A stretch of 38,123 bases of DNA from Candidatus Gastranaerophilales bacterium. Its GTDB lineage: Bacteria > Cyanobacteriota > Vampirovibrionia > Gastranaerophilales > Gastranaerophilaceae. The notes under the pieces were generated by a model. It saw nothing but the letters and a program-made list of their open reading frames with translations, searched no databases and was not told where the DNA came from. The translations under genes were made by a program, and so were the position numbers. Shown here one piece after another: positions 7,899 to 32,640 of the stretch. The first letter of the stretch is position 1, and every line of letters begins with the position of its first letter. The DNA lies in the NCBI GenBank assembly GCA_944323725.1, contig CALUTP010000007.1:1-38123 (forward strand). The letters are read 5' to 3'.

Positions 7899-8723
7899 TT
7901 AATATTTTATGAAATCATTCCAATAATCTTTTGTATTGTCGTCTGGATTTACATCTATACTTGCCCAGTATGCACACCCCATGCCGTTTTTTGAATCAGC
8001 TGATGTCTTTGAGCATTCAGTAAAATCATAGCTTCCAATAACAGCATCATTATTTGTATCAGGGTTTCCAAGTGGGATTACTCTGCCGTCTTTTGTAGGT
8101 CGGAATGAAAACATATCAACTCCTAACTGGTTTGGTTTTTGGTGGTACCCGTTTACATCAACTGTTATTACCATGCATTTTTCAGAAGGATAGCCATAAT
8201 CACTATAAAAAGTTTTTCTCATGAAATTCCACATATTTCCATCGTCAAACATATAAATATTTGCTTTATTACCTGTTAGGTTTTTAACATCATTGTTAAA
8301 TTTATTATGAAGGTCTTTGCCTTTTCCTTTATAATAACTGACAATTTTTGCTGTTGTATCTACAGTAGCAGTCATTACCGTCTCTCCACCGTTAGCAAGC
8401 ATCCAGTTATATTCACAGATATTGTAGCCAGTGTCTTTAATAAAGTTGAGGTTAATCTGTTGTAATTCGTTATATGTCTTTTTTAATTCTGTTTTTAAAA
8501 CTTTTTTCCTATATTTTGCAACAATTGAGGGCATAGTAAGTGCAGCAACTATACCGATAATTCCGAGTGTAATAAGCACTTCGGCAAGAGTGAAACCGGA
8601 TTTTTGACAAGCGGGATATGAGGGTCTAAGTGTGCTGAAAGGACTGCTATGACAGACTTTCTTAGATGATCTAGTTCGGAGATATTTGCCGAGCCAAAAA
8701 GACTTTTTATTATTCCCAGACAC
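7899..8723 (-). CDS. Type IV prepilin/pseudopilin-like protein, probably phase-variable
   Basis: The body is a clear prepilin: a processing site KSG^FTLAEV followed by the hydrophobic helix LITLGIIGIVAALTMPSIV, then a soluble domain with Cys pairs and the Gly-Cys block GMGCAYW near the C-terminus. No ATG, GTG or TTG lies between the GTG at 8723 and the processing site. That GTG has no Shine-Dalgarno and gives an unusual 43-residue leader. The frame stays open upstream to a 12-nt G tract (8844-8833). Beyond the tract an ATG at 8877 with AAGGAG 8 nt upstream is one nucleotide out of frame. With 11 or 14 G the ATG would read into the pilin and give a 94-residue leader. As sequenced the gene appears OFF or poorly expressed. 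Substrates and function of this pilin class in the lineage are unknown. No terminator is seen before the tRNA-Glu promoter 9 nt downstream. Confidence 0.75.
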   Translation of the reverse strand: MSGNNKKSFWLGKYLRTRSSKKVCHSSPFSTLRPSYPACQKSGFTLAEVLITLGIIGIVAALTMPSIVAKYRKKVLKTELKKTYNELQQINLNFIKDTGYNICEYNWMLANGGETVMTATVDTTAKIVSYYKGKGKDLHNKFNNDVKNLTGNKANIYMFDDGNMWNFMRKTFYSDYGYPSEKCMVITVDVNGYHQKPNQLGVDMFSFRPTKDGRVIPLGNPDTNNDAVIGSYDFTECSKTSADSKNGMGCAYWASIDVNPDDNTKDYWNDFIKY

Positions 8724-8790
8724 ATTAAAAAGGCAGAATTTGTAATTTGTAACTTTCGCAAATGAAAAAGATTTAAAAAAATCTATGCAC

Positions 8791-8877
8791 TTAATATGCT
8801 CTAAAATTATTGCACAAATCTCTAGACCTGAGCCCCCCCCCCCCTCTGTGGAATTTAATCATATCAATGGTTTCCAT
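8791..8877 (-). CDS. Short OFF-frame ORF starting at the strong RBS before the pilin
   Basis: ATG at 8877 with AAGGAG at 8891-8886 (spacing 8) encodes 28 residues, starting METIDMIKFHR, running through four Gly codons of the G tract and stopping at 8791. It is probably not a protein in its own right. It is what the upstream initiation site produces when the tract has 12 G. With 13 or 10 G a stop follows four codons after the tract. Confidence 0.5.
   Translation of the reverse strand: METIDMIKFHRGGGGLRSRDLCNNFRAY
8833..8844 (-). repeat. Homopolymeric (G)12 tract between RBS/ATG and the pilin frame
   Basis: Twelve consecutive C on the plus strand (G on the minus strand) in very AT-rich surroundings. 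It begins directly after the eleventh codon following the ATG at 8877. Such tracts change length by slipped-strand mispairing. The reading frame into the prepilin opens with a change of -1 or +2. Confidence 0.9.
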
Positions 8878-8970
8878 TTGAATAGCTCCTTTCTTTTTTT
8901 ATGTATAACATATATTATTTTACAATATTTAGTCGGATTTTTCAATAGTTTCTAATATACATATACCCCC

Positions 8971-31950: not shown

Positions 31951-32640
31951 GTGAAAAAAGGTTTTACTCTTGCAGAGGTGCTAATTACGCTCGGAATTAT
32001 AGGGGTTGTTGCTGCTATGACTTTGTCAGCACTGATTGGTAAGCATAAAAAGGTAGAGACTATTACAAGATTAAAGACCGCTTATGCAACAATTAATAAT
32101 GCTTTTAAACTTGCCGTTGCTGATTCTGGAGATATGAGGAATTGGGATTATATTGACAATTTCGACCAACCTGAAGCAAGAAAGGCTTTTATTGATAAAT
32201 ATTTAATTCCGTATGTGAAAAATGCTAAACCTTCAGAAAGAGCAGCTTATGAAGCATCACAAATGGAATATCCTAAATCAACTTCACCTTATTACCCACA
32301 TCAACCTAATGGTAGTCTTGTCGGTATGAGTTCTGCAAACTATTATCCTATTGGATTGTTAAATGGGATTTTTTATTATTCGGGTCATAATGGTTATGGT
32401 CAAATGACGTTCCATGTGGATTTAAATGGAGTGAATAAGCCTAATCTTTACGGTTATGAATTATTTTCATTTGAGCTTGTTCCTGAGAAAAATGTAGTAA
32501 AAATGTCTACTTATCAGTGGTCATATAAAACTGGCGGTGTTTATACATATTGCAAAAATGCTAATGCTACTGGATGTGGACTCGTTATAGAGAAAAATAA
32601 TTGGGATATTTCTGACGATTATCCTATAAAATTCAATTAA
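31951..32640 (+). CDS. Type IV prepilin/pseudopilin-like protein
   Basis: A 229-residue prepilin with a minimal class III-type leader, MKKG^FTLAEV, followed by the helix LITLGIIGVVAAMTLSAL. The prepilin peptidase would cut after Gly4. The soluble part is Tyr/Asn-rich and has a Cys pair near the C-terminus (YTYCKNANATGCGLV). The start is a GTG with GTGAGG about 5 nt upstream. It is divergent from the XRE gene. The stop overlaps lpxK (convergent) by 4 nt. In this lineage such genes occur in many scattered copies, and the exact role (pilus, pseudopilus or adhesion) is unknown. Confidence 0.88.
   Translation: MKKGFTLAEVLITLGIIGVVAAMTLSALIGKHKKVETITRLKTAYATINNAFKLAVADSGDMRNWDYIDNFDQPEARKAFIDKYLIPYVKNAKPSERAAYEASQMEYPKSTSPYYPHQPNGSLVGMSSANYYPIGLLNGIFYYSGHNGYGQMTFHVDLNGVNKPNLYGYELFSFELVPEKNVVKMSTYQWSYKTGGVYTYCKNANATGCGLVIEKNNWDISDDYPIKFN

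Follow-up and report, generated by a model that had tools for sequence, protein, structure and literature searches.

A poly-G tract as a probable ON/OFF switch of a type IV-like prepilin gene in a Gastranaerophilaceae genome with about 34 such loci

What does a run of twelve G residues do between a strong translation start and the reading frame of a prepilin? The arrangement occurs in the window, the whole 38,123-nt stretch of Candidatus Gastranaerophilales DNA analysed here. The original prediction took it for a candidate phase-variable pilin gene. The reading favoured here, with a probability of roughly 0.87, makes it a contingency locus, where translation of a type IV-like prepilin is switched by phase variation; the genome has about 34 such loci. 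The elements of the locus all lie on the minus strand.

8884..8891, minus strand: Shine-Dalgarno region AAGGAG, 8-nt spacer to ATG; read from the sequence, the layout being repeated at other tract loci.
8845..8877, minus strand: pre-tract leader of 11 codons (ATG plus ten), METIDMIKFHR; MKTIDMTNLQT in the orthologue described below.
8833..8844, minus strand: G12 tract, the putative switch (C12 on the plus strand); G13 in the orthologue.
8595..8832, minus strand: post-tract leader, open solely in the prepilin frame (P(open) = 0.003, by shuffling); relatives at the same position in genomes G004 and G008.
8791..8793, minus strand: stop codon ending the observed 12-G (OFF) frame of 28 aa, from sequence and translation.
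8721..8723, minus strand: GTG of the mechanical ORF, without a Shine-Dalgarno (sequence).
7899..8594, minus strand: mature prepilin FTLAEVLITLGIIGIVAAL..., 231 aa plus stop, above the PF07963 and TIGR02532 cut-offs.

Direct reading agrees exactly with the predicted AAGGAG-8 nt-ATG at 8877, its ten further codons and the G12 at 8844-8833. The tract had been called the longest G/C homopolymer noticed; it is the sole G/C run longer than 6 in a window of 32% GC. Translation depends on its length as proposed. With 12 G the ATG frame terminates at 8791 after 28 aa, and 13 G brings an early stop at 18 aa; 11 or 14 G fuses the ATG 8877 frame with the prepilin frame, giving 325 aa at 11 G. A change of one unit flips the ORF between a full-length and a cut-short product, as expected of a contingency locus. 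Of shuffled versions of the 238 nt from tract to FTLAEV, 0.3% are free of stops in the prepilin frame, as the real sequence is. The stretch between GTG and tract is open, as had been stated, but measures 109 nt rather than 111. The GTG at 8723 is probably not the true start of the prepilin, since a Shine-Dalgarno is missing there. Neither a hairpin-T run nor a start with a Shine-Dalgarno was found ahead of the prepilin at this locus, in line with the earlier claim that no usable start lies between tract and processing site.

The product has the processing site and hydrophobic N-terminal helix of a prepilin (G-1, F+1, E+5), with cleavage position G^F at 8595/8594 read directly from the sequence. 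It scores 25.7 bits against PF07963 (cut-off 21.2) and 24.7 bits against TIGR02532 (cut-off 16.3). The mature protein was modelled (pLDDT 73) as a long N-terminal helix followed by a beta domain. A Foldseek search of this model against the PDB found no significant match. In a second structural comparison, the Neisseria gonorrhoeae pilin is among the best full-length rows, with a low Z of 4.1, an rmsd of 4.2 and 131 aligned residues, non-pilins ranking higher. Because these PDB matches are weak, the fold is kept out of the evidence for pilin identity. A second prepilin in the window, at 31951-32640 on the plus strand, has a GTG start, a 4-residue leader (VKKG^FTLAEV) and no G tract.

In place of the short cytoplasmic leader of type IV prepilins, the window gene has one of 94 residues, counted from ATG 8877. 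To our knowledge this lies outside the known range for prepilins, which counts against the favoured reading. The original prediction had named it as the weak point, rightly as regards the usual range, yet such a leader is not unusual here. Sequences related to the middle of the leader (EHIKCIDFFKSFSFA) occur in G004 and G008, likewise between tract and prepilin, and homologous tract-linked leaders reach 601 nt; on these comparisons the long leader is a feature of the group.

The following course of events is proposed. (i) Translation would begin at ATG 8877, and after 11 codons the ribosomes would meet and pass the hypermutable G tract. (ii) With 11 or 14 G, they would continue through the 94-residue leader into the prepilin. 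(iii) The prepilin made in the ON frame would be inserted, and the prepilin peptidase, of which the genome has one, would cut it at G^F, so that the post-tract leader encoded at 8595..8832 is removed. (iv) With 12 or 13 G, ribosomes would stop within 28 codons and the pilin would not be made. (v) Replication slippage would shift the tract by one G, so that single cells differ. (vi) With about 34 tract-controlled prepilins, most of them OFF in the assembly, each cell would show a changing small subset of a large repertoire. The data establish the layout of the locus, the logic of its frames, its repetition across the genome, the orthologue and, among the matches listed, the confinement to one lineage; slippage in vivo, production of the protein and its pilus function are inferred from sequence.

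The tract does not stand alone. The genome (1.91 Mb in 48 contigs) carries 41 runs of at least nine G, just one of exactly nine. Some 40 runs of ten or more stand against 0.04 expected, so the G12 is not a chance run. Among the 41 tracts, 34 are followed by a same-strand prepilin at a distance of under 400 nt, where 0.34 would be expected. The 33 further tract-linked prepilins, together with the orthologue's tract, the varied tracts of paralogues and the loci of other species, support the slipped-strand ON/OFF reading put forward at the outset. Most loci are fused like that of the window: Shine-Dalgarno and ATG, about ten codons, tract, open leader, prepilin. TATAAT stands upstream of the ATG at 26 of 34 loci (17% of shuffles), so each tract-linked gene probably has its own promoter; upstream of the window ATG there is only TATACAT. 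Tracts serve 34 of the 80 prepilin motifs above the Pfam cut-off, about 46 prepilins having none. Three more tracts, with the same leader, are cut by contig ends. Each of the remaining four stands ahead of or within one of the following: an RgpF-like gene, a GT-D-like gene, the gene of a membrane protein, and that of a protein weakly matching LysM. Genes resembling those for surface polysaccharides (RgpF, GT-D-like, Stealth) have G tracts before or inside them at L018:1849, L019:2199, L020:2048, L177:1225, L200 and L110, an arrangement resembling classical phase-variable glycan genes.

The frame logic extends to other genomes. Across about 40 assemblies, 206 tracts with a Shine-Dalgarno start have a downstream prepilin, and in 191 of these pairs no stop separates tract and prepilin in the prepilin frame (58.9 expected from dinucleotide shuffles; 27 and 6 for the other two frames), although tract-linked paralogues share ancestry and the loci are therefore not all independent. 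For leaders of at least 100 nt the frame is open in 55 of 58, against 2.8 expected. In another species (G011), a syntenic orthologue, 70% identical over 231 aa amid neighbouring DNA of 82% identity, has G13 and is joined at 12 G. Its leader is shorter by 1 base before the tract and by 105 bases after it, the indels netting to a multiple of three and preserving the frame.

These comparisons bear on the idea that the prepilin is a frameshifted pseudogene and its tract a neutral relic. The assembled frame is indeed broken, but no stop interrupts the 231-aa body, the long leader can be read through, both body and switch persist in the orthologue, and tens of loci are built alike; a dead gene is accordingly very improbable. 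The homologues compared retain the tract. Their leader codons, which the original prediction had singled out for comparison, fared differently: one open frame is kept, but a conserved peptide was rejected, pN/pS in the true frame before the tract being 0.85-1.35 (about 0.9), no better than in shifted frames. By this measure the leader is maintained as an open frame and, as a peptide, not beyond shared descent. The lack of detectable purifying selection on the leader peptide counts against the favoured reading, as does the presence of MutS1 in the genome, on which ground loss of mismatch repair was rejected as an explanation.

Comparison of paralogues and of the orthologue indicates that tract length varies between close copies. 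Four of 12 locus pairs with near-identical flanks differ in length (12 vs 10, 12 vs 11, 11 vs 10, 13 vs 12); in a neighbouring G12 and G10 pair, the flanks are identical at 40/40 and 59/60 bases (100% and 98%). Near-identical leader cassettes of about 100 nt around the tract also occur at loci with unrelated flanks and pilin bodies (L028:2013 and 2884; L075 and L088; L172), which suggests that leaders may be exchanged between loci. Tract and leader might then be chiefly a recombination module moving between pilin genes, with length change secondary. Such a module accounts for cassettes shared amid unrelated surroundings; it leaves the single open frame and the coupling of length to frame unexplained, and is compatible with switching. 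As a replacement for the switch it has very little probability, slightly less than the dead gene.

The assembled state of the tracts is skewed. Of the 34 loci, seven are in frame, 25 have one G more than ON and two have one G fewer. When tract lengths were permuted among loci, the observed frame skew arose in 0 of 20,000 trials, so tract length follows the reading frame of its locus, and this coupling implies that the frame matters. The same +1 skew is common to G011, G010, G021 and G004. Free slippage would not give ON+1 at 25/34 loci, and this also counts against the favoured reading.

The skew is also the argument for its main rival, programmed slippage, in which RNA polymerase or the ribosome slips on the tract at a set rate and a 12-G gene has low steady expression without a switch. 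Most loci of several species are assembled one G above the in-frame length, and the orthologue keeps +1 despite a different raw tract length. Opposed to this, genus g7 (G018) sits one G below ON at 19/21 loci, Zag_221 is in frame at 8 of 11 sampled loci with lengths of 9 to 12, near-identical copies differ in length, and seven loci of the present genome are in frame. Programmed slippage is therefore judged unlikely, though less so than any other alternative. An artefact of homopolymer sequencing or assembly is the least credible of all. Every dataset is a draft assembly and the state is skewed, but two assemblies of the BRZ_ series skew in opposite directions (G011, BRZ_GQ, +1; BRZ_EH, -1), and across about 40 assemblies the positions and frames of the tracts form a coherent picture.

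For the phase-variation reading, the skew itself calls for an explanation. The earliest stop codon does not account for it, G021 and the window both sitting in the later-stop frame. A single preferred tract length is rejected for this genome, where length follows the frame class of each locus. One idea is selection for OFF with access to ON by a single deletion. It is tied to a deletion bias reported for Campylobacter polyG tracts of 10-11, in work cited in PMC4085013.

A second architecture, built on the same leader, exists at nine or so of the 34 loci of the genome, at further copies on contig ends and at one locus in G008. Here a short leader ORF is followed by a terminator hairpin and T run, then by a prepilin with its own Shine-Dalgarno and ATG.

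L091:4400-4640, L090, L092, L068, L070, L075, L079 and L089, with L374 in G008: attenuator-type loci.

Terminator-like hairpins are present at 13 of 13 attenuator-type loci, as against 11 of 215 fused loci. At 12 of the 13, the in-frame peptide ends at the hairpin end or beyond and both OFF frames stop 26-62 nt upstream; at the thirteenth (G011), the longest frame stops 13 nt short of the terminator. Translation through the hairpin would permit transcription of the own-start prepilin. Contigs C17, C30 and C45 (L086-L088) end about 115 nt past the tract, inside the repeated attenuator leader; short-read assemblies therefore probably undercount this family.

The system appears restricted to one lineage. 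Among the matches listed in a GTDB-wide pattern scan, named hits come from MAGs of Gastranaerophilales, Melainabacteria and Cyanobacteria, from uncultured bacteria and from two Fusobacterium-labelled records (CAG:439 and NALB_7963_5), which we think are mislabelled. Relatives in the order but outside the family have 0 to 3 tracts each. Phage or mobile origin was rejected, a search of phage records and viral contigs having found no relative. The relative G021, with a genome of 1.8 Mb, has 111 tracts of ten or more G; 21 of 26 sampled lead prepilins with near-identical N-termini and divergent bodies (L153-L172). By extrapolation, about 90 of its prepilins may be switchable. At L095:1502 in G011, a leader with Shine-Dalgarno and ATG is followed by G17 and an open frame of 497 residues, which begins like a signal sequence and contains repeats rich in glycine. 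The window case is a small visible part of a lineage-wide system. With rather more for it than against it, this system can be pictured as a pilin-display lottery: tens to about 100 prepilins per 2-Mb Gastranaerophilaceae genome would share a common tract-leader cassette, used within one genome both in fusions and in attenuators, with most held exactly one G from ON by selection acting on the frame.

Work on phase variation has centred on a few genera of pathogens. So large a repertoire in gut relatives of cyanobacteria suggests that stochastic pilus switching in commensals exceeds the Neisseria scale. In such genomes many prepilins may be cut short or given a wrong start by gene callers, and consensus assemblies hide the expressed pilin subset; archived metagenome reads could directly measure switching in hosts. 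A search of the literature for phase variation in Melainabacteria or Gastranaerophilales brought up no relevant work. Mechanisms of this kind are known. Within the literature searched, what is new is the scale, the prepilin target, the two-way use of a shared leader and the lineage, and within the same bounds a dual-use, genome-scale poly-G pilin system is undescribed so far.

Among known systems, the closest to the window locus are the poly-G ON/OFF contingency genes of Neisseria (pilC, pglA) and Campylobacter (PMC5953494, PMC8355987). Common to both are a G tract inside the ORF, an ON state when the frame is joined, and surface-related genes. Unlike those genes, the tracts described here switch prepilins themselves, by the dozen, from a common leader of Shine-Dalgarno, ATG and tract. 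The opa genes of Neisseria are likewise a surface-gene family with a repeat of its own near each ORF's 5' end; they differ in having a pentamer in the signal peptide and at most 12 loci per genome, and in not being pilins. The second architecture is closer to pil1 of Streptococcus gallolyticus, where a leader peptide contains a GCAGA repeat that has been shown experimentally to govern ribosome-mediated antitermination (PMC3894217). In pil1/pil3 and in the attenuator loci alike, the length of a repeat within a leader ORF determines whether ribosomes get as far as a terminator that precedes pilin genes, and both stop placement and distances match. The S. gallolyticus system has a GCAGA pentamer, sortase pili and one or two loci, whereas poly-G and type IV-like prepilins are found here; the window locus, a fused ORF without a terminator, falls outside this type. 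In scale, gonococcal genomes hold at most 54 phase-variable loci of all kinds and Neisseria lactamica 36-82, with 15-19 poly-G tracts to the genome; these compare with the 111 tracts of ten or more G in G021.
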